Below are positions 1 to 11,633 of a DNA stretch of 23,430 nt, in pieces. The stretch comes from a virus. The notes beneath the pieces are model-generated. The model was not told the origin of the DNA. It ran no database searches and saw only the letters and a list, made by a program, of their open reading frames with translations. Within the stretch, counting starts at the first letter, position 1. Every line of letters begins with the position of its first letter. The translations under genes and the position numbers were made by a program. Location of the stretch: positions 1 through 23,430 of IMG/VR virus record IMGVR_UViG_3300033388_002374; one strand, given 5' to 3'.

Positions 1-184
1 GGAGGGCTGCGGCCTAGGTTGGTGGGGGTCGGGAGGGCGGAGCCCGCCTGCCCGGCGGGGCAGCGAGCGCTGGTCGGCGTGCCGCTCGAGGCCTCGCTGT
101 CGCTTTGGCCCGAATCCGACAGCGCCAGACCGGTTGGGCCGCCTCGGACGGCGCGGATGGCCTGTAGATCAGAGACGGACGCGT
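1..184. other. Left edge, no gene recognised
   Basis: This stretch lies downstream of the last leftward gene. I see no open frame with a credible ribosome-binding site on either strand. It holds one perfect GC hairpin at 48-63 (CTGCCC, loop GGCG, GGGCAG) with no T-run beside it. It could be the 3' untranslated end of the leftward transcript, but nothing more can be supported. Confidence 0.5.
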
Positions 185-625
185 CTATCCTTCTGAGGAG
201 GCCCCCCCACCCCCTCGCAGGGGCCCACCGGGCGCGCCGGGACCTCTATATGGGACCTTCACGCGCATGCTCTCTGGTTCTGGTATCAGCTCCATCTGTC
301 CTGGCACGATCTGCGGTGAGATGTACTCCCCGTTCTGCCGGGTCTTGATGACGTGGCAGTTCGCGCATCGGAGGGTCATGTCTGGGACGTCGCCGGCGCG
401 GGAGAGGATGTGCCGATAGAGGCGTTCACGGGAGGTGAATTGGGCTCTGTGGGCGGCTCCGTCTCCGTTGACATGCTCGATCTGTAGGACGCGATGGTCG
501 ATATTTCCGCAGTCGAGGCATGCGTTTCCGAGGAGGTCGAGTACACGGCTTCTGAGCGCGGCGCGGTACCGTTGCTTCCCGCGTCTGTGGGTCTCTCGGC
601 CTCTGAGGGTTTTCGATCGGGGCAC
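185..625 (-). CDS. HNH-type zinc nuclease-like protein
   Basis: A 146-residue protein with an HNH-type pattern: a first Cys pair at residues 36 and 39 (CLDC), then IEHVNGDG at about 49-56 carrying the central His and Asn, then CANCH at 87-91 followed by a Lys/Arg-rich stretch. The basic N-terminus (1-27) would suit DNA binding. The last 25 residues are Gly/Pro-rich low complexity. The start is GTG at 625, preceded by GGGAGGAG. Small HNH proteins of this kind are common in phages, as free-standing homing endonucleases, nicking partners of terminase, or nucleases of unknown role. This one is remote from the terminase and on the opposite strand, separated from the rest of the leftward operon by 234 non-coding bases, which suits a semi-independent unit. 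The fold call is fairly firm; the cellular role is unknown. Confidence 0.75.
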   Translation of the reverse strand: MPRSKTLRGRETHRRGKQRYRAALRSRVLDLLGNACLDCGNIDHRVLQIEHVNGDGAAHRAQFTSRERLYRHILSRAGDVPDMTLRCANCHVIKTRQNGEYISPQIVPGQMELIPEPESMRVKVPYRGPGAPGGPLRGGGGASSEG

Positions 626-745
626 TCTCTCCTCCCTGCCGCCGAGTTTCTGCTCGGCGCCAACCGAGCTTCGAGGGCGGCAGTCTTTCCGGCTGGGCTG
701 GCGTCCGGAGGAGGTGGATCTTGGGAGGCCCAGGTTCGCATAGCG

Positions 746-761
746 CTGACATTTCTGTCAG
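746..761. repeat. Perfect 6-bp hairpin with a GAAA loop on the minus strand
   Basis: The minus strand reads CTGACA, GAAA, TGTCAG: a perfect six-pair stem closed by a GNRA-type tetraloop. It lies 15 bases after the end of a local GC-rich stretch and has no T-run, so a classical intrinsic terminator is doubtful. It could be an RNA structure or a protein-binding dyad. Confidence 0.45.
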
Positions 762-812
762 TCCAGCTCTGGTTGTGCTGTCGATCCTCCCCGCGGCGCG
801 ATTTCCCTGTAT

Positions 813-851
813 GGGGCGATTTAGGGGTGATCTGGGGCGATCTCAGGCGAT
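813..851. repeat. Four phased GGGGCGAT-like repeats
   Basis: Imperfect direct copies begin at 813 (GGGGCGAT), 824 (GGGGTGAT), 834 (GGGGCGAT) and 844 (CAGGCGAT). The intervals are 11, 10 and 10 bases, close to one DNA helical turn, so all copies face the same side of the helix. They sit in the non-coding gap just downstream of the gene that ends at 860. This resembles a small operator or iteron-like array; no binding protein is identified. Confidence 0.45.
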
Positions 852-859
852 TATCTTCA

Positions 860-1126
860 TCACTGTAGTCCGTAACTTCCTGTATACGGCGGAATGCTCT
901 GTATTTCGCCGGATTCTGGGTCTTGGGGTGTGCCTGTGATGGTCTTCTTCCGGGCCTTCCGTTTCTTCGGGCCGCAATTCTGCTTCAGGTGCGCGGCTTT
1001 GCAGCGTCTGGGGCTGGCCTGGTGGGTTTCGTAGGTGGTTCTGCACATGAGGCAGATCATGTCGTCATCGAAGGAGTGTCCTGCGGCGCCGTACTGTCCT
1101 TTGACGCGGCGGATGGGTTTCTTCAC
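860..1126 (-). CDS. Small Cys/His-rich, basic protein
   Basis: An 88-residue protein with probable metal-binding residues: CLMC at 25-28, His35, Cys42, His46 and Cys51, followed by a very basic run (about 53-61). The pattern suggests a small zinc-binding, nucleic-acid-binding protein, but it does not fit one family that I can name. The start is GTG at 1126, which overlaps the stop of the preceding gene in a GTGA arrangement. There is no strong ribosome-binding site, so translation is probably coupled to the gene upstream. Two stop codons in tandem end it. Confidence 0.6.
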   Translation of the reverse strand: MKKPIRRVKGQYGAAGHSFDDDMICLMCRTTYETHQASPRRCKAAHLKQNCGPKKRKARKKTITGTPQDPESGEIQSIPPYTGSYGLQ

Positions 1127-1323
1127 TTATCCGCGATCTCCGCGACGGCGGTGGCGATGTCTCCCAGGGCTTCTCCTAGTGGTCGGCGCAGTCCCTCTCC
1201 TGCCAGCGCCATCGCGATGGCCTCGAATGCCCCTGGCCCGTACTGGTCACTCTTGATGGAGTTCGCGGCGTCCCTGATAGCTCTCAGGGTGTCGATGATT
1301 TCCGTCCTCAATTCGTCGTCCAT
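1123..1323 (-). CDS. Small helical hypothetical protein
   Basis: A 66-residue acidic protein predicted to be helical throughout, with a heptad-like pattern of Leu/Ile/Ala. No family is recognised. The ATG at 1323 is well supported by TAGGAGACC four bases upstream. The gene follows the exported-type protein by 14 bases and overlaps the next gene by four bases, so it is part of the leftward operon. Confidence 0.65.
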   Translation of the reverse strand: MDDELRTEIIDTLRAIRDAANSIKSDQYGPGAFEAIAMALAGEGLRRPLGEALGDIATAVAEIADK

Positions 1324-1327
1324 GTCG

Positions 1328-1334
1328 GTCTCCT
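1328..1334 (-). promoter_or_regulatory. AGGAGAC ribosome-binding site (gene at 1123-1323)
   Basis: AGGAGAC on the minus strand, four bases before the ATG at 1323. It is one of seven occurrences of this exact heptamer directly upstream of a chosen start in the window. Confidence 0.7.
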
Positions 1335-1337
1335 ATT

Positions 1338-1556
1338 TCATTGGCACCAGACGGGTCCTGTGAGGAATTCGTCTCGGCCGTCGTCGCATTTCCAGACTTC
1401 GCGGTAGCAGCGGCCTGCATCGGTGGAGATCCAGAGACCTGTCCAGGCGCAGTTGGGGAGCGGGATGGAGAATGAGGGTCCCAGGAGCCAGTTTCGGGTT
1501 TCGGGTGGTAGGAAGCAGGCCTGGGTGAGGAGGGCCAGTAGGACGAGGAGTCTCAT
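1338..1556 (-). CDS. Small exported or lipoprotein-like protein
   Basis: A 72-residue protein that opens with a hydrophobic signal-like segment (MRLLVLLALLTQAC) ending in Cys14. The LTQAC sequence approaches a lipobox, but Gln at -2 is not canonical. The remainder is short and has four more Cys (36, 50, 57, 71), which suggests disulfides outside the cytoplasm. The ATG at 1556 overlaps the stop of the Tat-like gene (ATGA), with no clear ribosome-binding site. A small Cys-rich exported protein next to another exported one could belong to lysis (outer spanin-like) or superinfection exclusion. This is inference; no family is recognised. Confidence 0.6.
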   Translation of the reverse strand: MRLLVLLALLTQACFLPPETRNWLLGPSFSIPLPNCAWTGLWISTDAGRCYREVWKCDDGRDEFLTGPVWCQ

Positions 1557-1789
1557 CGGTGATATCTTGGTGGTATGACCTTGATCTGCCCGTAGCCTGA
1601 CTTGTAGGTGTCGACTGCCGCGTAGGTGTCGATCGCGAGGATGCCGTAGGTCTGGTGCATCTCGTCGATCAGGTACTCGCGGAACAGGATTTCGATCTCG
1701 GGGGCCGGCACGGCTGTCACGGTCGCCCGCATTCCCAGTAGGGTGAGTGGCGCGGCGATCAGTGCCTTGAGGAGCTCGCGGCGTCTCAC
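1553..1789 (-). CDS. Small protein with a Tat-like signal peptide
   Basis: A 78-residue protein. Residues 1-30 look like a twin-arginine signal: RRRELLKAL, then a hydrophobic stretch, then a plausible cleavage region near AVPAPE. The mature part, under 50 residues, is rich in Tyr and acidic residues and matches nothing I know. The start is GTG at 1789, preceded by GGAG nine bases upstream and overlapping the stop of the 21-aa micro-ORF (GTGA). Its stop overlaps the start of the next exported-type gene. A Tat signal normally implies that the protein is folded before export, which is unusual for such a small phage protein. The signal is read by eye only. Confidence 0.6.
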   Translation of the reverse strand: MRRRELLKALIAAPLTLLGMRATVTAVPAPEIEILFREYLIDEMHQTYGILAIDTYAAVDTYKSGYGQIKVIPPRYHR

Positions 1790-1851
1790 GTCTTCTTCTC
1801 CGGCGGCTTCAGGGTGACGAGGACCATCCGGCCCTTGGGCTTCGGCTTCAC
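1786..1851 (-). CDS. 21-aa basic micro-ORF
   Basis: A GTG at 1851 follows TAGGAGGACCACC, one of the best ribosome-binding sites in the window, and opens a frame of 21 residues (starting MKPKPKGRM, ending PPEKKT). The stop TGA overlaps the GTG of the Tat-like gene by two bases (GTGA), so this is either a real micro-protein or a leader that delivers ribosomes to the next gene. The strong site lies directly after the stop codon of the HAD-like gene. The peptide is Lys/Pro-rich at both ends; no function is known. Confidence 0.55.
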   Translation of the reverse strand: MKPKPKGRMVLVTLKPPEKKT

Positions 1852-1861
1852 GGTGGTCCTC

Positions 1862-2227
1862 CTACTTGTTCCAGGGGACGAAGGCCAGCATCTCCTCGAT
1901 CGTGGGGAACTCCCCCACGAAGCACATGGCGCGGTCGTCGATCGTGAGGAAGGCGGCCGGCTTCTGGGTCGGGAACTCGATCTGGCTCAACTCCTTCGCG
2001 GTGATGAAGTGCTGGATGAGCCAGTCCTGCATCGCTTTGATGCCGCCATCCTGTGAACTCCGCGAGGAGTAGATCGCCGGCTGCACCTCCTTGTCGTGGA
2101 CCAGCTCCGCCAGCCAGTCGATCGCGCCCGAGACGGGCGGATCCGCGACCACGTCGGCCCCCTGCCAGCCCGACGTGTAGGAGTGCAGGACGCCGTCGAA
2201 GTCGATGCAGATCGTTCGGACGCTCAT
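1862..2227 (-). CDS. HAD-superfamily phosphatase-like protein
   Basis: A 121-residue protein with HAD motifs: ICIDFDGVLH at 6-15 gives the nucleophile Asp9 and Asp11, a Ser pair follows a strand at 52-55, Lys89 lies in PTQKP, and LTIDDRA at 94-100 supplies the late metal-binding Asp pair (97, 98). There is no room for a large cap, so it would be a minimal HAD fold, as in small phage nucleotidases or polynucleotide 3'-phosphatases. A longer in-frame version starting at 2470 exists, but its extra 81 residues are the shadow of the neighbouring gene. The ATG at 2227 overlaps the previous stop (ATGA). Substrate unknown; nucleotide or nucleic-acid phosphates are the likely guess. Confidence 0.8.
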   Translation of the reverse strand: MSVRTICIDFDGVLHSYTSGWQGADVVADPPVSGAIDWLAELVHDKEVQPAIYSSRSSQDGGIKAMQDWLIQHFITAKELSQIEFPTQKPAAFLTIDDRAMCFVGEFPTIEEMLAFVPWNK

Positions 2228-2529
2228 ACCCGATTCTCGTCGATCTGGTGGTCCCCGCACCAGTCGGTCCAGAACATGACCGGCCAGCCGGACATGGTCG
2301 GTGCGTGCCGCCGGCAGCGGCCGACCTCCTTCCGGAGGACGGGGCTCGGATCGGGTCCCTTCCGGACGTAGAACCTGCAGCCCCGGCAGATCATGTGAGT
2401 GGAGCGGCCGGCCCAGTTGTCCTCCGGCACGGGGCCTTCCTTCGGGGTGTCCTCGGTCATGGGCTCGCACTCCGTCTCCTGCGACATCTGCCGCCCCGAC
2501 GTCCCTTCGATTCGTGTCTTGATGCTCAT
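2224..2529 (-). CDS. Cys/His zinc-binding conserved phage protein
   Basis: A 101-residue protein. The N-terminal 40 residues are acidic and probably disordered. The C-terminal half has a regular metal-ligand pattern: CRGC at 48-51, CRRH at 72-75 and CGDH at 91-94, which may bind one or two zinc ions. Short proteins with this type of Cys/His arrangement and the WPVMFWTDWCG flavour occur in many phages without known function. The ATG at 2529 has an AAGGAGACCCAG leader and lies behind a UNCG hairpin element. The stop overlaps the HAD start. Confidence 0.7.
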   Translation of the reverse strand: MSIKTRIEGTSGRQMSQETECEPMTEDTPKEGPVPEDNWAGRSTHMICRGCRFYVRKGPDPSPVLRKEVGRCRRHAPTMSGWPVMFWTDWCGDHQIDENRV

Positions 2530-2565
2530 CTGGGTCTCCTTGCCCCCGAAGGGGTGTTCTGGTTA
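2530..2565 (-). promoter_or_regulatory. Spacer module B: UNCG hairpin plus AGGAGAC site
   Basis: On the minus strand this 36-base spacer begins with the TAA of the upstream gene. It then forms CCCC (2554-2551), loop TTCG (2550-2547), GGGG (2546-2543), two bases, and AGGAGAC (2540-2534), with the ATG at 2529. The same layout occurs at 3868-3901. The C(UUCG)G tetraloop is exceptionally stable in RNA. It could tune translation or protect or process the transcript. Position and repetition are seen; function is inferred. Confidence 0.6.
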
Positions 2566-3021
2566 TCGGAGGTGCTTTCCGTGCTGGTAGTACCCGTGCA
2601 TGATGCGGTTGGTGAGGGCCTCCTGGTCGAGGTCTTCGGTCCAGTCCAGCTCGACGATCGCGGCGGCGATTCCGGCCGCGACCCCTCTGCTGTACTGGGC
2701 GTCCCAGCCGTACTCCCTGTCGATCGCGCTCCGCCCGAAGCCGGTCATCTTGAGCGCGTGCTCGCGGATGGCGCGCATGATGCCGATCACCACGTCCGGG
2801 TGGAGAATCGTAGGCTGGCGGTTCTCGAGGTCTCCGTCCCGCGCGGCGTTGAAGTCCATCGGGGGCATGACAGCGAAGTTCACTTTCTTGGTCGCGACCC
2901 CGATCGACATCTCATCGATCGCGCCGTGGAGCGTGACGAGCTCCATGCGAAGGCGGTCGATCTCGGCGGCGCATTCGTGGTGGGGGTCTGATCGGCTTCG
3001 TCGGTCTTCTGGTGGGCTCAT
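2563..3021 (-). CDS. Conserved-looking hypothetical protein
   Basis: A 152-residue protein that I do not recognise. The N-terminus is polar and charged and contains a likely helix (about 17-38). The C-terminal half is Ala/Ile-rich and helical and ends with MHGYYQHGKHLR. The ATG at 3021 is preceded by TAGGAGACCCAG, whose TAG is also the stop of the ParB-like gene, so the two are adjacent in one transcript. The sequence from AGGAGACCCAG through ATGAGC is identical to that of the gene starting at 2529, which suggests duplication or selection on the start region. Confidence 0.65.
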   Translation of the reverse strand: MSPPEDRRSRSDPHHECAAEIDRLRMELVTLHGAIDEMSIGVATKKVNFAVMPPMDFNAARDGDLENRQPTILHPDVVIGIMRAIREHALKMTGFGRSAIDREYGWDAQYSRGVAAGIAAAIVELDWTEDLDQEALTNRIMHGYYQHGKHLR

Positions 3022-3030
3022 CTGGGTCTC

Positions 3031-3867
3031 CTACTCGATCTCGGGGATCTTTTCCTGCTTCACCTTGAAGCTCAGGATCCGGACCTTCTTCCCGCTGCGG
3101 ACCATGTTCCAGGCCTTGATGGTGAGCCCGAGGATCTCCTTCTGGGTCATCTTCTTCGACGCGCCGCGGTTCGATATGAGCCGCTCTCGGAGCTGGAACT
3201 GGGGTTCCTTCGCCCTCATCAGCTCGCCCGTGGTCACGTCCTCGAAGAAGGAGTCGGCCAGGGTGTCGTCCTTCTTGGAGAAGGCCCAGTGGCAGAATCC
3301 CAGGACGGACGGCCGCCCCATGCGCTTCCAGGCGAGCTGGGCCGAGAGGTGCGCGCTGCGCCGGGCGTCGGGGTGCTTATCCAGCATCTCCTCCAGCTCG
3401 GCGTTCGACGGTACGTCGCTATTCTGGGAGAGGGTCTCCCGTTCCAGGCGCCAGATCATCGCCAGGATGGCGGAGAGCTGGGTGGCGTTCTTCTCGCCGT
3501 GCTGGAGGGTCAGCATGTCGGCGCCGCTGCGCGACCGATTCTTGTCCACGGCCACCCGGATGGCCGGGTCGGCCCCCGTCACCACGATCGACACGAAGGT
3601 CGTGTCGCTCATCGCGCAGGCGTGGAGTCGATGCTGACCGTCGACCAGGACGCCGTCCCAGTCGAAGATGATCGTCCCTACCCCGAGCAGCCACTTCTCG
3701 TTCTTCATGTCGCGCATCAGGCGGAGCGTCTGATTCTTCGACAGGCTCCGGTTGCGCGAGTTGTACTCGAGCCACTGCCGCGCCATCTTCGGCGTGATCT
3801 TCATCGTCTGACTCTGAAGACCCGCGTCCTTGTCTTGCTGATGTAGCCGAAGCACCTTTGGCTTCAT
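3031..3867 (-). CDS. ParB/DGQHR-domain protein
   Basis: A 278-residue protein whose N-terminal half matches the ParB-like nuclease (sulfiredoxin-type) fold found alone in many phages. ITPKMARQWLE and LSKNQTLRLMRDM at about 24-54 are followed by a strand-rich segment and the DGQHRLHA box at 76-83; the DGQHR motif holds the phosphate-binding or catalytic residues of the family. The C-terminal half (about 130-278) is helical, with a basic end, and is not recognised. There is no neighbouring parA, so plasmid-like partition is unlikely from context. A role in DNA binding, nicking or nucleotide-dependent regulation is more plausible. The ATG at 3867 has AAAGGAGAC three bases upstream and sits behind the first UNCG hairpin. 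Confidence 0.8.
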   Translation of the reverse strand: MKPKVLRLHQQDKDAGLQSQTMKITPKMARQWLEYNSRNRSLSKNQTLRLMRDMKNEKWLLGVGTIIFDWDGVLVDGQHRLHACAMSDTTFVSIVVTGADPAIRVAVDKNRSRSGADMLTLQHGEKNATQLSAILAMIWRLERETLSQNSDVPSNAELEEMLDKHPDARRSAHLSAQLAWKRMGRPSVLGFCHWAFSKKDDTLADSFFEDVTTGELMRAKEPQFQLRERLISNRGASKKMTQKEILGLTIKAWNMVRSGKKVRILSFKVKQEKIPEIE

Positions 3868-3901
3868 CTCGTCTCCTTTCCCCCGGAGGGGTGTTGGGTT
3901 A
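3868..3901 (-). promoter_or_regulatory. Spacer module A: UNCG hairpin plus AGGAGAC site
   Basis: On the minus strand this 34-base spacer begins with the TAA of the upstream gene. It then forms CCCC (3891-3888), loop TCCG (3887-3884), GGGG (3883-3880), two bases, and AGGAGAC (3877-3871), with the ATG at 3867. It parallels module B at 2530-2565. The loop change from TTCG to TCCG keeps the UNCG consensus, which favours a selected RNA structure over chance. Confidence 0.6.
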
Positions 3902-4090
3902 TCTCAAAATCCACCAGACCATGAACCAGAACCCGCAGACCAGGCACCCGGTGAAGGTCCCCTTGAAGAAGGCGCGGGTGAAGCAGTCCTCGGCCCAGTC
4001 TCGGTTGGCATAGGCGGCTGTCTGCCACTGCTCGGAGGCGTCCTTCCAGGCCTTGACCTCCTTCTTCAGATCCTCGATGCGGTCACTCAT
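3899..4090 (-). CDS. Small coiled-coil protein with a C-terminal membrane segment (holin-like?)
   Basis: A 63-residue protein. Residues 1-40 are a charged helix with coiled-coil character (IEDLKKEVKAWKDASEQW). Residues about 44-62 form a hydrophobic membrane segment rich in Trp and Phe, ending in Arg. This N-terminal helix plus C-terminal membrane anchor recalls XhlA-type phage holin accessories, but Tyr/Trp-rich tail-anchored proteins of other function look the same. The start overlaps the preceding stop by eight bases, and the leader TGGAGGACCCCG supports the ATG at 4090. The first five residues (MSDRI) nearly match those of its upstream neighbour (MSDRF). Confidence 0.65.
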   Translation of the reverse strand: MSDRIEDLKKEVKAWKDASEQWQTAAYANRDWAEDCFTRAFFKGTFTGCLVCGFWFMVWWILR

Positions 4091-4301
4091 CGGGGTCCTC
4101 CACTCCCACCACCACTTTCAGGCGCTCGAGTAGGTGTTTCACGGTGCCGGCGGAGAGGGGTATCGGCGCCAGCAGCTCCATGTCGCGCGCGGTGCAGCGG
4201 ATGATCGCGCCCGGTCGGGAGTGCATCAGCAGGTCGTCCTGGCACTGGCGGCTCAGCTCCTCCCAGACGGCGAAGAGCAGGCCCTCGAATCGGTCACTCA
4301 C
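4083..4301 (-). CDS. Small hypothetical protein
   Basis: A 72-residue, mainly helical protein with two Cys (20 and 36). No family recognised. The start is GTG at 4301, supported by AGAGGAG upstream. It overlaps both neighbours by eight bases, so it is translated as part of the same cassette. No membrane segment or signal is seen. Confidence 0.6.
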   Translation of the reverse strand: MSDRFEGLLFAVWEELSRQCQDDLLMHSRPGAIIRCTARDMELLAPIPLSAGTVKHLLERLKVVVGVEDPDE

Positions 4302-4545
4302 TGGGCGGCTCCTCTGGTGGTGGGGCTGGCGGCGTCTCTGGCGGGGCCTCGTCTGGCACGGGCAGCCCGGCCAGATCCCTGCGCGACCAGACGATCGCCT
4401 GGATGCCGGACTGGATCCGGATCGCGTCGTCCTGCTGGCAGTTCTCCTTGACGGTGGTGTTGACCAGGACGAAGACGCCGCTCTCTGGGTCCTCCCAGCA
4501 GCCGGCGCCGTACCAGATCATCAGGGCCAGGATGGTGGAGGTCAT
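4294..4545 (-). CDS. Small hydrophobic-start, proline-rich-tail protein
   Basis: An 83-residue protein. The first 16 residues (TSTILALMIWYGAGC) are hydrophobic and end at a Cys, but no basic residues precede them and the lipobox is poor. The last 20 residues alternate Pro and Glu (PPETPPAPPPEEPP), a rigid extended tail. I chose the ATG at 4545 because it overlaps the previous stop (ATGA) and follows CGGGAG; the 66 extra residues of the longer in-frame version from 4743 are the shadow of the neighbour. A membrane-anchored protein with a Pro-rich arm could be a spanin-type lysis protein, but that is a guess. Confidence 0.6.
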   Translation of the reverse strand: MTSTILALMIWYGAGCWEDPESGVFVLVNTTVKENCQQDDAIRIQSGIQAIVWSRRDLAGLPVPDEAPPETPPAPPPEEPPSE

Positions 4546-4799
4546 CTCGACTCCCGGATGTTCGTAGCCACCTGGATGACCGCGGCCGTCAGGCGGTCGA
4601 TGGCCTCCACGACGCGCGCGATCTCCTGGGGCCCATCGTCGGCGCCGATGAAGATGTTGGGTAGGTCTCCCGGTGTCGGCAAGTCGACCTGGGGGGTGTC
4701 GGTCACGACGATCGGCCTGCCTGGCTCGGCATGGGGCGAACATGCCTCTCCGGGGTGGGCCGGGCCGCCGCAGTACGCGCAGACTTCCGGGAACGGCAT
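4542..4799 (-). CDS. CCHC zinc-knuckle-like small protein
   Basis: An 85-residue protein. CAYCGGPAHPGEAC at residues 7-20 fits the CX2CX4HX4C zinc-knuckle spacing exactly. The middle is Pro/Asp-rich, and the last 25 residues form a helix (ARVVEAIDRLTAAVIQV). Zinc knuckles usually bind single-stranded nucleic acid; whether this short one does so is unknown. I chose the ATG at 4799 rather than an upstream in-frame start at 4817 because AGGAGGAGACTG directly precedes it and it overlaps the previous stop as TGATG. Confidence 0.7.
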   Translation of the reverse strand: MPFPEVCAYCGGPAHPGEACSPHAEPGRPIVVTDTPQVDLPTPGDLPNIFIGADDGPQEIARVVEAIDRLTAAVIQVATNIRESR

Positions 4800-5413
4800 C
4801 AGTCTCCTCCTGCCCACTTCCGATGGGCTTCGAGTAGGTTATCGATCGGGGTCATCCGGTGGTCCGCCACGCACCAGGGCCGGTTGTACCCATCTTCCTT
4901 GCGGCCGAAGGCCATCTCCTCGGCCTCGGCCTCGAATCTCTGGGTGCAGATCCACCCGATGATGTCGACCCAGCGGTCATTGGGGGCCCGGTCCATGAGG
5001 TTGCCGGGGGTGTAGCAGAGGATGGCCCCCGCGAGTTCGTCGGCGCTCATTCTGGTCTGGTACTGCAGCTTCATGTAGCCGGGGTTCCTGTAGGAGCCAT
5101 CGAAGGAGATGGTCTTCACCCCGAACCGGCACCCGAAGATGATCAGGTCGGCCCCTCCGTCCCCGCCGATCCCCGGGATGATCTCGTCACTGATGGGCAC
5201 CGCGAAGAGGTTGGAGCAGACCCTCTCCCCGGCCCGGCCGCGCATGGTGGCCGCGATCGGCTCTCCATCGCGCCGGACTTCCTCCTGGTTGAAGTAGGTC
5301 CGAGACTCCGGCGGCTTCACCGAGTTGATGTCCCTGACGACCTGGAGGTCGTGGTTCCACTGCTCGGGAGGGAAAGACACCCCCCACCGCCAGGGCAGGT
5401 ACAGCCCGCTCAC
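4799..5413 (-). CDS. Hypothetical with degenerate PD-(D/E)xK-like motif
   Basis: A 204-residue protein. Its central GDGGADLIIFG at 84-94 followed by FGVK at 97-100 resembles the core of PD-(D/E)xK nuclease-fold proteins of phages, where an Asp after GDGG and an acid-x-Lys pair on the next strand build the active site. Here the acid position before VK is Gly98, so the site looks incomplete and the protein may not cut DNA. The remainder includes a Cys- and Trp-containing segment (about 150-165). The start is GTG at 5413, overlapping the stop of sulfotransferase 2 (GTGA) after GAGGA. The fold assignment is tentative. Confidence 0.55.
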   Translation of the reverse strand: MSGLYLPWRWGVSFPPEQWNHDLQVVRDINSVKPPESRTYFNQEEVRRDGEPIAATMRGRAGERVCSNLFAVPISDEIIPGIGGDGGADLIIFGCRFGVKTISFDGSYRNPGYMKLQYQTRMSADELAGAILCYTPGNLMDRAPNDRWVDIIGWICTQRFEAEAEEMAFGRKEDGYNRPWCVADHRMTPIDNLLEAHRKWAGGD

Positions 5414-6057
5414 GCCCGGTCCTCGTACTTCCAGCCGAAGTGCTCGAGCTCCTTGGCGAAAATCTCCTCTACGCGCGCGCGGGACTTGGCCGTGAAGAAG
5501 GCCGAGTAGTGCCTGGGGTCGACCTTCCGGAAGCGGCTCTTCGCCTTCGGGAGCCAGCCGTCCCAGGGGATCCCGAGCTGGTCGCAGAGGCTCTTCAGCT
5601 CAGCGTCCAGGTCGTCATAGAGCAGGATCTTGTCCACGGCGACAGCGCCGTATTCGTTGGTGTACCGGTCCCAGTCGGTCGGGATGAAGGTGTCGTCCTG
5701 CTGCATCCACCGCTCGAAGCTGTAGCGCTTCCGATCGGTGGAGTAGAAGTACATGCTCACGCACTTGTCCCACGGATTACGCTCGATCGTCCATGAGAAG
5801 ACCTCTTTCAGCCAGAGGTGTTCCTTGATCTCGGAGAGGGGCATGTGGTTGTAGAAGCGGGTCTTCCCGGTCTCTGGGTCCTCCCAGTTCCGCGGGCCGC
5901 CGCCGAAGCGCCAGCGCGTGACCTCGTCCTCGTCCGAGACGACGGTGATGATGTCTTCCTTGTGCTTCATGTAGCGGGAGAGGGACAGCTCGACGGAGGT
6001 GCCGGCCGTCTTCCTGGTCTTCACGAAGAGGTAGGAAGGGTCATGCGACAGGAGCAT
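5410..6057 (-). CDS. Sulfotransferase 2 (Sulfotransfer_2-like)
   Basis: A 215-residue cytosolic sulfotransferase-fold protein. The PAPS 5'-phosphosulfate loop is visible at about 11-22 (FVKTRKTAGTSV), the likely catalytic His71 lies in YNHMPLSEI, and the 3'-phosphate-binding pair Arg93 and Ser101 lie in ERNPWDKCVSMYFY. The ending HYSAFF...VEEIFAKELEHFGW is typical of carbohydrate 2-O/6-O type families. It would transfer sulfate from PAPS to a sugar or other hydroxyl acceptor; the acceptor is unknown. No PAPS-synthesis genes are in the window, so PAPS would come from the host. The ATG at 6057 overlaps the upstream small gene by 17 bases and has only a weak ribosome-binding site. Confidence 0.87.
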   Translation of the reverse strand: MLLSHDPSYLFVKTRKTAGTSVELSLSRYMKHKEDIITVVSDEDEVTRWRFGGGPRNWEDPETGKTRFYNHMPLSEIKEHLWLKEVFSWTIERNPWDKCVSMYFYSTDRKRYSFERWMQQDDTFIPTDWDRYTNEYGAVAVDKILLYDDLDAELKSLCDQLGIPWDGWLPKAKSRFRKVDPRHYSAFFTAKSRARVEEIFAKELEHFGWKYEDRA

Positions 6058-6217
6058 TGGCCGTCCGTCTCTCGATGATCTGCTCCAGGCCGGAGATCAT
6101 GCGCTGGAGTTCTGTGATCTCCAGATCCTTTCGCGCGAGCCGCTTCTCGGCCTTGATCAGGTCCAGCCGCAGCCGGGCGTTGTCATCAGCCAGTCTCACC
6201 TCTCTCTTGGGTGGCAT
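6041..6217 (-). CDS. 58-aa coiled-coil protein
   Basis: A 58-residue, highly charged protein; residues 8-50 form an almost continuous heptad helix (LADDNARLRLDLIKAEKRL). It lies between the two sulfotransferase genes and overlaps both (32 and 17 bases), so the three are probably translated together. A longer in-frame start at 6325 is rejected because the ATG at 6217 has CAGGAG six bases upstream and the extra residues are a shadow of sulfotransferase 1. It may be a partner or oligomerisation factor for a neighbour; nothing shows which. Confidence 0.65.
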   Translation of the reverse strand: MPPKREVRLADDNARLRLDLIKAEKRLARKDLEITELQRMISGLEQIIERRTANAPVA

Positions 6218-6830
6218 AGGTCGCTCCTGGTGGTGGAAGCGCGTTGAAGCGCCTCTTGGTGGGTCGGATCCGGTCATCCTCTGGGATCTCGAGGAAGTCG
6301 TGCAGGGTCGCGAGGATGACGTCATTGTTCAGGTCCCGGGTGGACAGGTGCATCTTCGGCCCTTCGAGCTGGCCCATCATCCGCTCGCAGAGTTCCCAGT
6401 AGACCTCCCAGGAGGTGTAGGAGTCCGCGGCGTCGATCGTGGGGAAGACGTTGACGTAGGCCTGGCGGTTCGGGTCTCGGTGGACCTCGGCCTTGTCTAT
6501 CGGCCGGAGATTCCCGCCTCCGCCGGACCAGCGGAGGAAGGACTCGACGGTCTCTTTCTTCGGCCGGTGGAGGCACACGATCCGGAGATCGGGCTTCTCC
6601 TTCTGCATGTGGGGGATGTGAGGCAGCCAGAAGCTGGAGCAGTCCCCTATCAGGGATGCCTCGCAGTCCTCGAACCAGTCCAGGGCCCGGATAATCTCCG
6701 GCTGGTCGGGCGGGCCGTACCAGAGCGGCCCGAATTGCTCATGAGAGACCTCGCTCTCGGGGGTCAGATTCAGCATGCGGGCGAGCGACATTGTGCCGCA
6801 GCGCCCCGTCCCAGTGCCCAGAAAGCGCAT
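6186..6830 (-). CDS. Sulfotransferase 1 (P-loop sulfotransferase family)
   Basis: A 214-residue protein and the first gene of the leftward block. GTGRCGTMSLARML at 7-20 is the PAPS 5'-loop. IVCLHRPKKETVESFLRW at 84-101 supplies the 3'-phosphate-binding Arg89 and Ser97. The late HDFLEIPED is typical of sulfotransferase C-termini. It is only distantly similar to sulfotransferase 2, so the two are probably not a recent duplication and may act on different acceptors. The ATG at 6830 has AAAGGAGCC upstream and opens onto the divergent control region. Sulfotransferases are known in some marine and actinobacterial phages, where their targets are largely unknown. Confidence 0.82.
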   Translation of the reverse strand: MRFLGTGTGRCGTMSLARMLNLTPESEVSHEQFGPLWYGPPDQPEIIRALDWFEDCEASLIGDCSSFWLPHIPHMQKEKPDLRIVCLHRPKKETVESFLRWSGGGGNLRPIDKAEVHRDPNRQAYVNVFPTIDAADSYTSWEVYWELCERMMGQLEGPKMHLSTRDLNNDVILATLHDFLEIPEDDRIRPTKRRFNALPPPGATYATQERGETG

Positions 6831-6887
6831 ATTGGCTCCTTTGGGGCCAGCTTACAACATCCGTTGCGGCAACTCCAGGGGGAAAGA

Positions 6888-6899
6888 GCCGACCCACCC
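6888..6899. repeat. Direct repeat copy 1, GCCGACCCACCC
   Basis: First copy of a 12-base direct repeat in the divergent region, matched exactly at 6928-6939 (40 bases on, close to four helical turns). A pair of same-orientation sites at this spacing suits a regulator binding one DNA face. Confidence 0.55.
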
Positions 6900-6927
6900 C
6901 AGGAAAAGGAACCGAAACCCAGAGGGG

Positions 6928-6939
6928 GCCGACCCACCC
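6928..6939. repeat. Direct repeat copy 2, GCCGACCCACCC
   Basis: Second exact copy of the repeat at 6888-6899. Both are preceded by a purine-rich AG-containing stretch (GAAAGA and GAGGGG). Confidence 0.55.
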
Positions 6940-7009
6940 GGAGCCCCCCACCAGCGGTTGTCCCCGGGCGCCACATACTATACCGTCCTCCTGTGACGTC
7001 CGATTCTCT

Positions 7010-7019
7010 CCGGCGCCGG
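7010..7019. repeat. GC palindrome copy 1, CCGGCGCCGG
   Basis: A perfect ten-base palindrome, repeated at 7040-7049. The centres are 30 bases apart, about three helical turns. It is a candidate operator upstream of the packaging and structural genes. Confidence 0.5.
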
Positions 7020-7038
7020 GCCCGGATCTGCCCGTCCA

Positions 7039-7050
7039 CCCGGCGCCGGG
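7039..7050. repeat. GC palindrome copy 2, CCCGGCGCCGGG
   Basis: A perfect twelve-base palindrome containing the second copy of CCGGCGCCGG. It ends 21 bases before the first rightward ATG, so a bound protein could block the promoter or the early transcript. As RNA it would also fold into a hairpin close to the ribosome-binding site. Confidence 0.5.
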
Positions 7051-7071
7051 GATTTCGGGGAGGGGGGACCG

Positions 7072-7260
7072 ATGCCACTCAAGGCAGGCAAGGCCGATAC
7101 CGGCACGAAGGAACTCGGGAAGCGTGAGGACCAGGGTGGGGATTCCGATTCCGTAACCGGCTCCCAGGACTGGCCAGGACAGGCCTCCGGGGGGAAGTAC
7201 TCGGTGAATCAGTCGCCCGGCCGCGAGCGCAAGGCTCCGGCGAGCGACGGCGGGAAGTAG
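7072..7260 (+). CDS. Small hydrophilic hypothetical protein
   Basis: A 62-residue, Gly/Lys/Ser-rich protein that is probably disordered. It is the first gene of the rightward block, with a purine-rich leader (GGGGAGGGGGGACCG) before the ATG at 7072. It has no recognisable family. The following gene's GTG overlaps its last base. Confidence is limited because the composition alone does not prove coding. Confidence 0.5.
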   Translation: MPLKAGKADTGTKELGKREDQGGDSDSVTGSQDWPGQASGGKYSVNQSPGRERKAPASDGGK

Positions 7261-7523
7261 TGCCGGACGAGAACGCCCAGGAAGAAGGGGCGGTGGTCAA
7301 CGAAGGCATGACCACTGAGGTCCACCTTGGATCGCCCAAATCGGACGCGGCGCTCGGCGAGGAGCTACAGGCGATATCGGATTCGATGCAGCCTCCGAAG
7401 CCCACGTCCGAGATCGGCCCGTGGATCGCGGAGCAGCTCGGAGTTCTCGAGTTCGTCATCGCCTCGATCAGGCGCAATGTCGAGTCTCTAGAGAAAGCTG
7501 TAGCGCACCTCAGAAGGTTCTGA
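7260..7523 (+). CDS. Small acidic hypothetical protein
   Basis: An 87-residue protein. The first 50 residues are polar and acidic; the last 35 form a helix ending in a basic tip (LEKAVAHLRRF). The GTG at 7260 overlaps the stop of the previous gene by one base, after GGGAAG. Its position just before the terminase genes suggests a packaging accessory, but no family is recognised. Confidence 0.6.
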   Translation: MPDENAQEEGAVVNEGMTTEVHLGSPKSDAALGEELQAISDSMQPPKPTSEIGPWIAEQLGVLEFVIASIRRNVESLEKAVAHLRRF

Positions 7524-7526
7524 CCC

Positions 7527-7928
7527 GTGGGCCACAAAGGCTCCCAGAAGTTCTCGGGCGCCCGGGGGCAGATGCCGGCCCCTGAGATCGAGACGGCCTT
7601 GGAGGCCGCCCTGGACCGCAGCGTTCAGGAGCTGGCCGCCGGCCACCGCGAGCGCGCGATCGAGATCCTCGCGGAGTGCATGGATTCCTCGAATGCGAGC
7701 TGGGCCGCGAAGTGTACGGCCGCGCGCGACATCCTGGCCTACGCGGACGGCCGCCCCCACGCGCAGGCCGTGAGGGACACTGCGGACACCGGGATCACGA
7801 TCAACATCGTGCGCCTGACCGATGGGCGCACTGAGACGATCGAGGTCAAGACGGCCGCGAGGGTGATCGACGCACCGACTGTGATCACCGCGCAGACCCG
7901 CGCGGAGCAGCTCCTGGGGATCGGATGA
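7527..7928 (+). CDS. Candidate terminase small subunit
   Basis: A 133-residue protein directly upstream of the large terminase, with a four-base overlap (ATGA). The helical segment SWAAKCTAARDILAYADGRP at about 58-77 resembles the central helices of several phage small terminases, which form a ring and recognise the packaging site. A basic N-terminus could touch DNA. A classical helix-turn-helix is not clear by eye, so the call rests mainly on position and length. The start is GTG at 7527, with AGAAGG about nine bases upstream. Replacing this with another DNA-binding protein would be the main alternative. Confidence 0.6.
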   Translation: MGHKGSQKFSGARGQMPAPEIETALEAALDRSVQELAAGHRERAIEILAECMDSSNASWAAKCTAARDILAYADGRPHAQAVRDTADTGITINIVRLTDGRTETIEVKTAARVIDAPTVITAQTRAEQLLGIG

Positions 7929-9226
7929 ACATCACGGTCCCAGTCGACTGGTCGCCGCGCGACTACCAGATGCCGCTCTGGGAGGCACTCGAGGGCGGGG
8001 TGAAACGCGCGTGTGTAGTGTGGCACCGGAGGGCGGGGAAAGACCTCTTCTCTCTGAACTGGCTCTGCACGCAGATCTTCCAGAGGGTGGGGATCTACTG
8101 GCATGTCCTGCCTACCTACCGCCAGGGCAGGCAGATCGTGTGGGAGGGGAAGACCTACGAGGGCCGCCCCTTCCTGAGCCACTTCCCTGAAGAGACGATC
8201 ATCAGACAGCGCGACGACGAGATGACTCTCTGGTTCTCCAACGGCTCGCGCTATCAGGTGATCGGCGCGGACGACCCAGACCGTCTGGTCGGCGCCAACC
8301 CGGTCGGGATCGTGTTCTCGGAGTGGAGCATCATGATGCCCCGCGTGTGGGAGCTGACCTGGCCGATCCTCGCCGAGAACGATGGGTTCGCGATCTTCAT
8401 CTACACGCCGCGCGGCCGGAACCACGGCTTCCGCACGCTGGAGAACGCGAAGAAGAGCCCGGACTGGTATCACCAAGTCCTCTCAGTGGACGACACGCAC
8501 GCCGTCGACTTGAAGGTGATCGAGGAAGCTCGAGCTGCCGGAATGCCGAAGGAGATGATCCAGCAGGAGTTCTGGGTGTCCTTCGATGCCCCTCTGGCAG
8601 GCAGCTACTGGGGCGACCAGATCGAGGATGCGCGCAACGATGGCCGCATCGGCAAGGTCCCGTGGGAGCCTCTCGCCCAAGTTACGACGGCCTGGGACCT
8701 CGGGATCGGAGACTCGACGGCGATCTGGTTCGTCCAGCAGATAGGGAAGGAAGTCCGGATCATCGACTACTACTCGGCCAGCGGAGTCGGCCTGGAGCAC
8801 TACGCGAAGGTTCTCTCGGAGCGGCCGTATGTCTACCGAGACCACCTCTTCCCTCACGACGCCGCGGTCAGGGAGCTCGGATCTGGCAAGAGCCGAATCG
8901 AGATGCTCCGGTCGATGGGCATCAAATGCAAGTTGGTGAAGAGGGTCAGCGTCAACGACGGAATCAACGCCGTTCGCGCGCTGCTGCCAAAATGCTACTT
9001 CGATGAGGTGAAGTGCGAGAAGCAGAAGGGGATCCAGGCCTTGCGCGAGTACACGAAGGAGCGCCTGGCAGGAGAGCAGGACGCGGACGGTCAGCCGATT
9101 TATCGCGATAAGCCCCGCCACGACTGGACCTCCCATCCCGCCGATGCGCTACGCACCCTGGCGGTCGGCCTTAAACCAGTGAGAGAACATCGAGAGCAGT
9201 TGCACCCGCAGCTCGCGATCGTGTAG
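7925..9226 (+). CDS. terL: Terminase large subunit
   Basis: A 433-residue ATP-driven packaging motor and nuclease. Walker A is WHRRAGKD at 33-40. Walker B is GIVFSEW at 128-134, with Glu133 catalytic; this family uses Ser in place of the usual Asp. The RNase H-like nuclease follows, with TAWDLG (Asp258), IIDYY (Asp281), HDAA (Asp312) and HPADALR near the end (Asp407). Length and motif order are complete. It takes procapsid and concatemeric phage DNA as substrates and would work with the small subunit upstream and the portal downstream. The start overlaps the previous stop (ATGA). Confidence 0.95.
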   Translation: MNITVPVDWSPRDYQMPLWEALEGGVKRACVVWHRRAGKDLFSLNWLCTQIFQRVGIYWHVLPTYRQGRQIVWEGKTYEGRPFLSHFPEETIIRQRDDEMTLWFSNGSRYQVIGADDPDRLVGANPVGIVFSEWSIMMPRVWELTWPILAENDGFAIFIYTPRGRNHGFRTLENAKKSPDWYHQVLSVDDTHAVDLKVIEEARAAGMPKEMIQQEFWVSFDAPLAGSYWGDQIEDARNDGRIGKVPWEPLAQVTTAWDLGIGDSTAIWFVQQIGKEVRIIDYYSASGVGLEHYAKVLSERPYVYRDHLFPHDAAVRELGSGKSRIEMLRSMGIKCKLVKRVSVNDGINAVRALLPKCYFDEVKCEKQKGIQALREYTKERLAGEQDADGQPIYRDKPRHDWTSHPADALRTLAVGLKPVREHREQLHPQLAIV

Positions 9227-9235
9227 GAGTGGACA

Positions 9236-9460
9236 GTGGGCCTCATCAAGACGGAACACGATGTGAAGGTGCTCTTGAAGAGGGTCGATGCACTAGAGTC
9301 CCTAGTGAAAGCGCTGCAGAAAGACCTGTCCGAGACCAATGGAGAAGCAGAAGCCTCGCCGGCACCCGGCCTGAAACATCCGGCGTTCCCTCGCGCCCTG
9401 CGCGAGCTGGGATTCGAACCCCCGCCGATAGGAGACAGTCAGGATGAGTGCCCAATTTGA
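9236..9460 (+). CDS. Small coiled-coil protein before portal
   Basis: A 74-residue protein. Residues 8-32 form a heptad helix (DVKVLLKRVDALESLVKAL), followed by a Pro-rich tail. The GTG at 9236 has TAGGAG seven bases upstream, and the TAG of that site is the terminase stop. An overlapping frame starting at 9229 is rejected because its start would abut the same site. It overlaps the portal start by 17 bases. Function unknown; small helical proteins between terminase and portal are common. Confidence 0.6.
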   Translation: MGLIKTEHDVKVLLKRVDALESLVKALQKDLSETNGEAEASPAPGLKHPAFPRALRELGFEPPPIGDSQDECPI

Positions 9461-11633
9461 AGAAGCCGAGCGTGCCATCGCGCAGCTCCTGAGCGAGGAT
9501 ACCCAGTACACCCGGCCGGAAATGGACATGTCGGACGCTCCCCTGGACGTCGAGGTCCGCGAGGAGGGCATGCTGCCGGCCGTGTTCTCCGAAGATCCAG
9601 TCGAAACGTACCGGAAGATCCGCCCGTTAGAAGAGGACGAGATCAAATCGGTGGTCAGCCAGGAGATCTCCAGTGCGATCGGCGGGCTAGGATCCGAGAT
9701 CTCACGCCAGCGGACCCAGGCGATCGACTACTACTACGGCCGCCCCTTCGGGAACGAGGTCGAAGGCCGCAGCCAGGTCGTGATGACGGACGTGGCCGAC
9801 ACGATCGAGTGGATCATGCCATCCCTCACCCGCGTCCTCCTTGGCGGCCGGCACACTGCTCGGTACACCCCGAACTCGGAAGAGGACGAGGAGATGGCCG
9901 ACCAGGCGACCGAGGTGATCAACCACCTTTTCAGGCATGAGATGGACGGGTGGATGGTCTGCCACGACTGGTTCAAGACGGCGCTGCTGGAGAAAAACGG
10001 CTTCGTTCGGTCCTACTACGAGGAGAGGGTCGACCCGCAGCAGGAGGCCTACGAGGGCCAGGACGAACTGCAGATGGAGATCCTCCTGAAGGATCCAGAC
10101 GTCCATCCGGTCGAGTTCTCTGACAGGGGGGACGGAACATACGATGTGCGGATCGTGCGCCGAGATGTTCACCGCGCGATCAAGGTCGACGGGATCCCCC
10201 CCGAGGAGTTCCTGATCGCGCGGCGCGCGACGAAGCTGGACGATCAGACGCCCTTCTGCGCGCAGCGGAAGAAGGTCACGATCAGCGACCTGACCGCGAT
10301 GGGGTACGACCCGGAGGTCATCGCGGATATCCCGAGCGACGACTCCCCGGAGTTCTCCGAGGGCCGAGCTACTCGGTACAGTGACGAGGAGACGTGGCCG
10401 ACAGGAGGGGCGGAGAGGGCCGACGCGGCGTCTCGCGAGATGTGGCTGACGTACTGTTACATCCGCATCGACGAAGATGGCGATGGCTTCGCGGAGGGTA
10501 GGCTGATCACGGTGGTGGGGGAGGACTCTCTCTACATCCTCGACGACCGACAGATCAACCATAATCCTTTCAGCTCGATTACTCCCGTGCCCATGCCATA
10601 CAAGTTCTTCGGTCTCTCGATCGCGGACCTCGTCATGGATCTGCAGCTCATCCGCTCCACGCTGATCCGGCAGATGTTGGACAACCTCTACAACATCAAC
10701 AACTCCCGCACGATCGTAGAGGAAGGGGCCGTCGAGATCGACGACCTCCTGGTCAGCCGGCCGGGCGGGATCGTCCGGGCCGATCACGTCGATGCCGTGA
10801 AGCCGCTGGAGACTGCGGCCTTCGGGCCGATGGCCTTCAACATGGTGGAGTGGCTGGACACGGTCAAGGAAAACAGAACCGGAATTACCAAGTACAACCA
10901 GGGACTTGATGCGGAGTCCCTAAACCAGACGGCGACCGGGATCTCGAAGATCATGGACGCCGCGCAGGCCCGCATCGAGCAGTTCGCCAGGGTCTTCTCC
11001 GAGACTGGCCTCAAGGATCTCTTCCGAAAGCTCCTGAAACTCTACGCGAGTTCGCCCATGAAGGAGCGCACGATCCGACTCCGGGGGGAGTGGGTCACGT
11101 TCGATGCTTCCAAGTGGAACACGAACATGGATGTAGAGATCGAGGTCGGTCTCGGGGTAGGCCAGGCGAACGATCGGATCCGTCAGCTCCAGATGATCCT
11201 CGAGCTGTACGGCCAGATGCAGGACAAGGGCATCGCGGAGATGTTGGTCACTCCCCGGCACATACACCACACCGTCACGAAGCTGGTCGAGGCGATGGGC
11301 TTCAAGATCCCCGAGGACTTCTTTGCGGATCCGGCGACCCAGAAGCCTCCGCCCCCGAAGCCGAGTCCGGAGATGGAGAAGATCAAGGCCGATGCCACTG
11401 CCAAGGGCGAGCAGAACGAGCTGAAGGAGAAGGAGCTGGATCTGAAGGCCCGGGACATCGAGCTGGACGCCGAGATCAAGAGGGAGGAGATCGCCATGCG
11501 CCGCGAGATGGAGCTGGCGAGGATCGCGAGCAATGAGGCCATCGCCCTGGCCCAGGGGGCGGTTGAGCTGGAGCGCGAAGGGATGAAGGAATCCACGAAA
11601 GGCCGGCAGGCCGAAGGAGGGAGTGGGGCATGA
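9444..11633 (+). CDS. Portal protein, P22-like
   Basis: A 729-residue portal that forms the dodecameric ring at the packaging vertex. The signature IDYYYGRPFGNEVEGRSQVV at about 94-113 followed by DTIEWIMPSL marks the P22-type portal clan, as does the length. From about residue 634 a Pro-rich linker leads into a strongly charged coiled coil (643-713), which would fit a helical barrel inside the head. The ATG at 9444 follows TAGGAGACAGTCAGG. It packages with the terminase upstream and binds the adaptor encoded later. Confidence 0.92.
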   Translation: MSAQFEEAERAIAQLLSEDTQYTRPEMDMSDAPLDVEVREEGMLPAVFSEDPVETYRKIRPLEEDEIKSVVSQEISSAIGGLGSEISRQRTQAIDYYYGRPFGNEVEGRSQVVMTDVADTIEWIMPSLTRVLLGGRHTARYTPNSEEDEEMADQATEVINHLFRHEMDGWMVCHDWFKTALLEKNGFVRSYYEERVDPQQEAYEGQDELQMEILLKDPDVHPVEFSDRGDGTYDVRIVRRDVHRAIKVDGIPPEEFLIARRATKLDDQTPFCAQRKKVTISDLTAMGYDPEVIADIPSDDSPEFSEGRATRYSDEETWPTGGAERADAASREMWLTYCYIRIDEDGDGFAEGRLITVVGEDSLYILDDRQINHNPFSSITPVPMPYKFFGLSIADLVMDLQLIRSTLIRQMLDNLYNINNSRTIVEEGAVEIDDLLVSRPGGIVRADHVDAVKPLETAAFGPMAFNMVEWLDTVKENRTGITKYNQGLDAESLNQTATGISKIMDAAQARIEQFARVFSETGLKDLFRKLLKLYASSPMKERTIRLRGEWVTFDASKWNTNMDVEIEVGLGVGQANDRIRQLQMILELYGQMQDKGIAEMLVTPRHIHHTVTKLVEAMGFKIPEDFFADPATQKPPPPKPSPEMEKIKADATAKGEQNELKEKELDLKARDIELDAEIKREEIAMRREMELARIASNEAIALAQGAVELEREGMKESTKGRQAEGGSGA

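Follow-up and report, generated by a model that had tools for sequence, protein, structure and literature searches.

Two dissimilar sulfotransferase genes around a small coiled-coil gene in a phage operon: a possible accessory cassette for sulfation of host surface glycans

The window analysed here, a stretch of 23,430 bases that makes up the IMG/VR virus record IMGVR_UViG_3300033388_002374, carries three overlapping genes on its minus strand, two of which code for sulfotransferases of different families that use 3′-phosphoadenosine 5′-phosphosulfate (PAPS), here termed STa and STb, while the third, located between them, codes for a 58-aa coiled-coil protein. We tentatively read the trio, at a probability of about 0.46, as an accessory phage cassette whose two enzymes would sulfate a host surface glycan with PAPS made by the host. 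This reading draws on the conserved PAPS sites and predicted folds of both enzymes, on the glycan-related gene context of their relatives and on the affinity of STb to cellular enzymes.

Results

Two sulfotransferases of different families with conserved PAPS sites

STa (6186..6830, minus strand, 214 aa) was assigned as a PAPS sulfotransferase homologous to Sulfotransfer_4 and Sulfotransfer_3 proteins based on its open reading frame (ORF), its structural model and the Pfam matches of its relatives, as 13 of the 23 aligned STa proteins (window included) matched PF17784 (Sulfotransfer_4) and 10 matched PF13469 (Sulfotransfer_3). STb (5410..6057, minus strand, 215 aa) was assigned as a homologue of Sulfotransfer_2 proteins by its model, by its relatives and by PHROG 3347, a family of the moron/auxiliary metabolic gene category named Galactose-3-O-sulfotransferase, which it matched over residues 6-210 (E 1.5e-5) and whose galactose specificity is an annotation only. 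PF03567 (Sulfotransfer_2) matched 33 of the 39 aligned STb proteins (window included) with E-values up to 0.01; STb is thus taken as a homologue of Sulfotransfer_2 proteins that stands outside Pfam's own membership. No similarity between STa and STb was detectable (best BLAST E 0.17), which, together with the models and the relatives' Pfam matches, bears out the initial annotation in its claim of two different sulfotransferase families.

That both enzymes keep the 5′ and 3′ PAPS sites was confirmed in the two alignments. The 5′-phosphosulfate-binding (5′-PSB) and 3′-phosphate-binding (3′-PB) motifs are the parts of a sulfotransferase that bind PAPS. For STa, the 5′-PSB P-loop (residues 5-16; 6783..6818, minus strand) retains G5, G7, G9, R10, C11 and G12 in all 23 proteins, as does the 3′-PB with Arg89 and Ser97 (6540..6566, minus strand). 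A His30-Glu31 pair (6738..6743, minus strand; His in 23/23, Glu in 22/23) is the candidate catalytic base, a role that we assume from the general sulfotransferase mechanism. In STb, K13, T14, K16, T17 and A18 of the 5′-PSB (residues 13-20; 5998..6021, minus strand) were found in 38 of the 39 proteins, the 39th being without this region, and both Arg93 and Ser101 of the 3′-PB (5755..5781, minus strand) were found in 39/39. His71, the histidine of an NHMPL motif (5845..5847, minus strand), was likewise present in 39/39 and is a putative catalytic base; Glu23 and Lys173 were invariant as well.

Structure prediction placed both enzymes among the sulfotransferases. The AlphaFold (AF2) model of STa (predicted local distance difference test, pLDDT, 82.8; predicted template modelling score, pTM, 0.79) had 5wri (TPST1) as its best VIA match (Z 13.5, 173 aligned residues, 3.4 Å), and a Foldseek match to 3rnl (E 9.7e-6). 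The STb model (pLDDT 93.3, pTM 0.89) was closest by VIA to the heparan-sulfate 6-O-sulfotransferase (6-OST) structures 5t03/5t05 (Z 10.3, 176 aligned, 3.7/3.6 Å), followed by the 2-O-sulfotransferase (2-OST) 4ndz (Z 10.2, 176 aligned, 4.1 Å). Sequence searches of solved structures returned no sulfotransferase with the single window STa or STb, and weak sulfotransferase matches with the profiles (best E 0.0063 and 0.0081). Because the Arg and Ser that bind PAPS do not vary in either alignment and the models are good and sulfotransferase-like, STa and STb can be expected to bind PAPS; active sites unable to do so, which would have spoken against the initial annotation, were not what we found.

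The structural matches also bear on two other possible acceptors. STa could sulfate protein tyrosines of a host receptor, a signal or a phage protein, with STb acting on another target, as the top VIA matches of its model were human TPST1/2 and a tick TPST (Z 13.5 to 12.7) and its His-Glu pair follows the first helix, which is where a catalytic Glu is expected. However, sulfotransferases other than TPST scored only about one Z unit lower (an olefin synthase domain at 12.5, curacin at 12.1), unrelated P-loop kinases reached 11.1, and the relatives of STa are tied to glycosyltransferases (see below), so that we regard tyrosine sulfation as improbable. A small molecule such as a host metabolite, a signal or an antibiotic to be inactivated would fit the best Foldseek matches of STb by E-value, which are cytosolic SULT enzymes with small-molecule substrates, and the presence of the antibiotic-tailoring Cpz8 and the bacterial SgdX2 among the structure matches of STa. 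VIA, however, places heparan-sulfate enzymes first for STb, and the gene neighbourhoods of both families point to glycans, which leaves sulfation of a small molecule with a low probability too.

The initial annotation had also stated that PAPS supply genes are absent. We found no adenosine 5′-phosphosulfate (APS) kinase (PF01583) in the 23,430 bases, but no search was aimed at ATP sulfurylase, and since the window is a fragment, absence of PAPS genes from the whole phage cannot be shown. The PF01583 search covered 48 of 81 records (the window, 24 STa records and 23 STb records) and gave matches in 10 records, nine of them over the cut-off, all within the 23 STb records and none in the window or the 24 STa records. 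One such match on an STb-bearing viral contig, L049:10094-10930, has APS_kinase as its best family (8.7e-13) and is fused to a cytidylyltransferase-like domain; on another, L016:15842-16270 matches APS_kinase and a generic AAA family about equally.

Relatives of both enzymes lie in a glycan context

The neighbourhoods of relatives were collected from 30 STa loci and from the best 80 of 96 STb loci, all of them detected with alignment queries; among the STa loci, L118 has a match of 32 residues only and was missed by the profile. In 21 of the 30 viral records, a family-2 glycosyltransferase (PF00535) was located no more than 2 kb from STa, compared to 4.6 expected from random placement on these 30 records. 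As the records are not independent, we also counted lineages, of which 13/20, 10/17 and 7/13 had such a neighbour at 80, 60 and 40 percent identity, respectively. The association extends to gene fusions in two lineages: a 452-aa protein of L111 contains a glycosyltransferase domain and an STa-type sulfotransferase, and a 957-aa protein of L096 joins an STa-type sulfotransferase to family-2 and Galactosyl_T domains, with L097, a near relative, having the same long frame with the family-2 domain. Among plasmid relatives of STa, one lies within a glycosyltransferase cluster and one adjoins a nucleotide sugar dehydrogenase.

In some phages, the STa relative is found next to virion genes. The order of major capsid gene, STa relative and family-2 glycosyltransferase gene occurs in Salinibacter phage 15_1 (L001:4989-5630), L105:7977-8636 and L093:7989-8627, and suggests a sulfated, glycosylated capsid in these phages; Salinibacter phage 7_4 (L002) matches 15_1, as judged by gene layout. 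Decoration of the virion, i.e. sulfation of a glycan on a capsid or tail protein, would thus be an alternative to a host acceptor. Yet L093 and L105 collapse into a single STa lineage when counted at 60 percent identity; this lineage also includes L103, whose profile score is nearly that of the Salinibacter genes. Moreover, the window enzymes are encoded on the strand opposite to the structural genes in a record devoid of PF00535. We therefore consider it unlikely for the window.

For STb, the plasmid relatives include members of exopolysaccharide loci of Salipiger and Leisingera, with glycoside hydrolase and export genes, and a bacterial STb (L190) adjoins a second sulfotransferase and a polysaccharide flippase. 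The viral neighbours of STb were sampled from 55 of 82 loci after removal of near-copies, whose 192 proteins were clustered and 10 representatives scanned: six of the 10 belonged to Capsule_synth, GT25, GT8, TylF methyltransferase, sugar epimerase, or cytidylyltransferase/mannose-phosphate isomerase families. A viral protein of 495 aa (L029:8001-9488) fuses an STb-type sulfotransferase to a GH43-like domain (sub-threshold). Such capsule and polysaccharide neighbours also argue against a role in DNA base modification, in which a sulfated glycosylated base would help the phage to evade restriction. Nucleotide-modifying phage systems based on glycosyltransferases and sulfotransferases have been reported, according to a passage of PMC10829341 (citing Iyer et al. 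2013), but the window proteins scanned matched no base-modification or glycosyltransferase family (the record being a fragment), and we give this explanation very little weight. A carbohydrate acceptor is most likely given the glycosyltransferase neighbours and fusions and the exopolysaccharide loci among the relatives, in keeping with the part of the initial annotation that had proposed a glycan as target.

STb groups with cellular enzymes

A phylogenetic tree of STb was built from 209 detected proteins (109 + 100), of which 187 with a length of 180-300 aa were entered and 136 were left after removing those more than 70 percent alike; its bootstrap had not settled and support values are rough. 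Separate from the main viral clade of 31 rows, the window STb fell into a 64-row set (99/85) in which 62 rows are of cellular or plasmid origin and one is a virus. Given this affinity to cellular and not to viral enzymes, STb was probably acquired from a cellular, presumably bacterial, genome. No match to the window STb was found among named phages, and the viral STb of L026 had one, an uncultured phage. The STa tree (28 rows) offered no settled placement for the window row, which sits on a long branch (2.3). All 184 named-phage records matched by STa and the STa relative L112 were Salinibacter phages of one host strain.

Overlapping genes within an operon, and similar pairs elsewhere

STa, the 58-aa gene (6041..6217, minus strand) and STb are genes 1-3 of a leftward operon, in which most genes are small and which occupies the left part of the window from 6830 down to about 185. 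All ORFs were present at the coordinates initially assigned to them, with overlaps of 32 bases (STa and the 58-aa gene) and 17 bases (the 58-aa gene and STb). The 58-aa ORF starts at an internal ATG of a listed 94-aa frame (6041-6325) and was called from its codon log-odds, an upstream AGGAG and its heptad score, which was reached by none of 200 shuffles. All three are supported as genes by codon statistics, for which 13 further genes of the window served as training set, with log-odds per codon of 0.33 for STa, 0.49 for the 58-aa gene (0.74 in its non-overlapping core) and 0.59 for STb, the remaining five frames scoring below the given one in each of the three stretches. Shine-Dalgarno-like sites precede STa and the 58-aa gene. 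Upstream of STb there is a weak site at most, which would fit translational coupling.

The overlaps had been taken to bind the three genes together; as evidence for a special unit they turned out to be weak. Among the 13 other junctions of listed ORFs in the operon (three ORFs overlapping others excluded), seven are overlaps (4, 19, 202, 8, 8, 4 and 4 bases) and six are gaps, so that overlap is common in this operon and was set aside; the 17 and 32 bases of the trio are at the upper end of the range and comparable to the 19. The 202-base overlap means that one ORF of that pair is probably not a gene, and the junctions of four listed ORFs (185-625, 860-1126, 1338-1556 and 4294-4743) are unsure due to their near-zero codon log-odds.

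We also looked for the trio in other phages. The three-gene order was not found, adjacency of STa and STb occurring only in L108 and L109, where nothing lies between the two genes (STa then STb, one-base overlap). These two records, which are close relatives of each other, are the only two of 30 STa records with an STb, while none of 50 STb records had an STa in a search run without a positive control; a profile search run locally on the available stretches of the 80 STb loci found no STa either. When STa, STb, the terminase and the 58-aa protein were each scanned singly against IMG/VR, no relative was confirmed, and the 58-aa protein had no detected relative in viral contigs, in searches that may overlook relatives that are distant or short. 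In six complete but distant phage relatives, picked by terminase or capsid similarity (identity at or below 50 percent), neither STa nor STb had a match, and for this reason the cassette looks accessory. Relatives thus largely keep one enzyme alone, an outcome that the initial annotation had named as counting against it, and the trio of STa, coiled coil and STb is not a conserved unit.

Sulfotransferase genes nevertheless recur side by side. Adjacent genes on the same strand were counted in 10 of 74 viral lineages, window included; this count refers to stretches rather than whole genomes and was made with profiles for STa, STb and an additional sequence, which would miss sulfotransferases of other families. 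Three of the 10 lineages have pairs of dissimilar families, namely the window, L108/L109 and L089/L090, the last with STa followed by a Sulfotransfer_3 protein. The other seven are STb tandems with two or three genes in six lineages and five genes in L049 (L049:3111-6365). As the STb row of L109 was outside both the 64-row set of the window STb and the 31-row viral clade (with rough support), the STa-STb pairs of the window and of L108/L109 probably arose separately, and the recurrent pairs in general apparently did so as well.

These results leave room for a simpler explanation, in which the two enzymes are independent accessory genes that became adjacent by chance and have no joint function. 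The rarity of the partner in STa and STb records, the lack of an adjacent second sulfotransferase in 64 of the 74 lineages (in the stretches examined) and the frequency of overlaps in the operon are all in its favour, while adjacent pairs and arrays with differing partners in 10 lineages speak against it. We consider this explanation somewhat doubtful, and it is compatible with any acceptor, including the host surface glycan that we favour. A joint task for the two enzymes, as first proposed, is accordingly retained in a weaker form, backed by the adjacent pairs, and not as the function of a conserved three-gene unit.

Neighbouring genes and other features of the window

The record is of the linear class, which is often a sign of a fragment. 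The right part of the window holds a rightward structural block with terminase, portal, scaffold, major head protein and DNA ejection protein genes, and the phage is probably podovirus-like. STb is followed by a gene for a 204-aa protein (4799..5413, minus strand; from the ORF list) that has a GTG start and overlaps STb by four bases. It gave no Pfam match and a PHROG match at chance level only; a stretch of it, GGADLIIFGCRFGVKT, resembles by eye a PD-(D/E)XK nuclease motif. A terminator-like hairpin (5383-5399, minus strand) is located directly after STb, within the start of this gene, in a region mildly enriched in terminator-like sites (9 compared to 4.7 expected). No sigma-70-like promoter was found in a scan of positions 1-9500. 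Further downstream in the operon, the product of 1862-2470 (minus strand) has weak HAD-type similarity and matches a PHROG family annotated as phosphoheptose isomerase (2.4e-12), name and fold being seemingly at odds.

Discussion

We propose that the window phage took up an accessory sulfation cassette, the STb of which probably derives from a bacterium or another cellular source. The mechanism that we infer, from the activity of the enzymes and where they act to their acceptor, their source of PAPS and the benefit to the phage, would be as follows. As products of the first genes of the leftward, non-structural operon, both enzymes would move sulfate from host-made PAPS to carbohydrate, most likely to two different hydroxyls or two different sugars of a polysaccharide on the host surface, be it capsule, O-antigen or exopolysaccharide. 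The cell surface would thereby be altered and become more negative during infection (or lysogeny), and adsorption of competing phages and sister virions to the infected cell may be hindered.

Several observations weigh against this proposal. Both window proteins fall below the Pfam cut-offs: STa reached PF13469 with an E-value of 0.015 (16 bits vs a curated cut-off of 27) and has no PF17784 row, and STb has no PF03567 row at E-values up to 1. The best structural match of the STa model is a protein-tyrosine sulfotransferase. The window record has no PF00535 glycosyltransferase, so that the glycan context is that of the relatives only, and this context is not uniform: only 10 of the 50 viral records with STb contained PF00535 (seven over the cut-off), the distance test covering STa alone, and among the 10 representative STb neighbours, three matched no family and one was a GIY-YIG endonuclease whose cluster occurs in 16 loci. 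The closest plasmid relative of STb (Streptomyces FR1, 36 percent) lies between tRNA-dihydrouridine synthase and aroA, the bacterial STb of L125 adjoins a tRNA synthetase and a histidine kinase, and that of L194 adjoins Lon-like and ABC genes. Finally, the named phages pointed to no host for STb.

Compared to known families, STb is similar to the PF03567 carbohydrate sulfotransferases and the heparan-sulfate 2-O/6-O fold in its relatives' matches, its VIA matches and its 5′-PSB, histidine and 3′-PB, and differs from them in being short (215 aa), phage-borne and without a PF03567 row; it matches PHROG 3347 over residues 6-210 and differs from it in grouping with cellular sequences. STa shares the PF17784/PF13469 affinity of its aligned relatives and, in its model, the TPST fold, but is itself sub-threshold and on a long branch.

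Sulfotransferases have been described as auxiliary genes on phage genomes (PMC10580990, PMC8290583, PMC10829341, PMC12285232), and their biological function in phages remains unclear according to PMC10580990. While the window resembles these cases in carrying sulfotransferases on a phage genome, the relevant passages of the four papers describe no pair of unrelated enzymes, no coiled-coil partner and no glycosyltransferase fusion. No description of paired phage sulfotransferases was found in the open-access literature, as represented mostly by titles and the starts of abstracts. Some uses of the term are less relevant: passages of PMC10269572 and PMC10434257 apply “sulfotransferase” to PAPS reductase, and PMC13299392 names one sulfotransferase in passing. 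A bacterial precedent for surface sulfation is LpsS of Sinorhizobium meliloti, a lipopolysaccharide sulfotransferase whose biological relevance is, as stated in a passage of PMC12445080, not well understood.

A broader and more speculative extension, which we hold to be unlikely, is that small “sulfation codes” have arisen in phages many times over and independently of each other. Two or more sulfotransferases, some of them unrelated and often joined or fused to glycosyltransferases, would together sulfate several sites of surface or virion glycans in patterns that control adsorption, and the 58-aa coiled coil would tether both enzymes into one complex in the phage studied here.

The link between the STa family and glycosyltransferases, which goes as far as gene fusion, provides a concrete and testable class of acceptors. 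If the phage does sulfate sugars of the host surface, this would represent a little-explored chemistry of superinfection exclusion and would offer a new angle on sulfated bacterial glycans.

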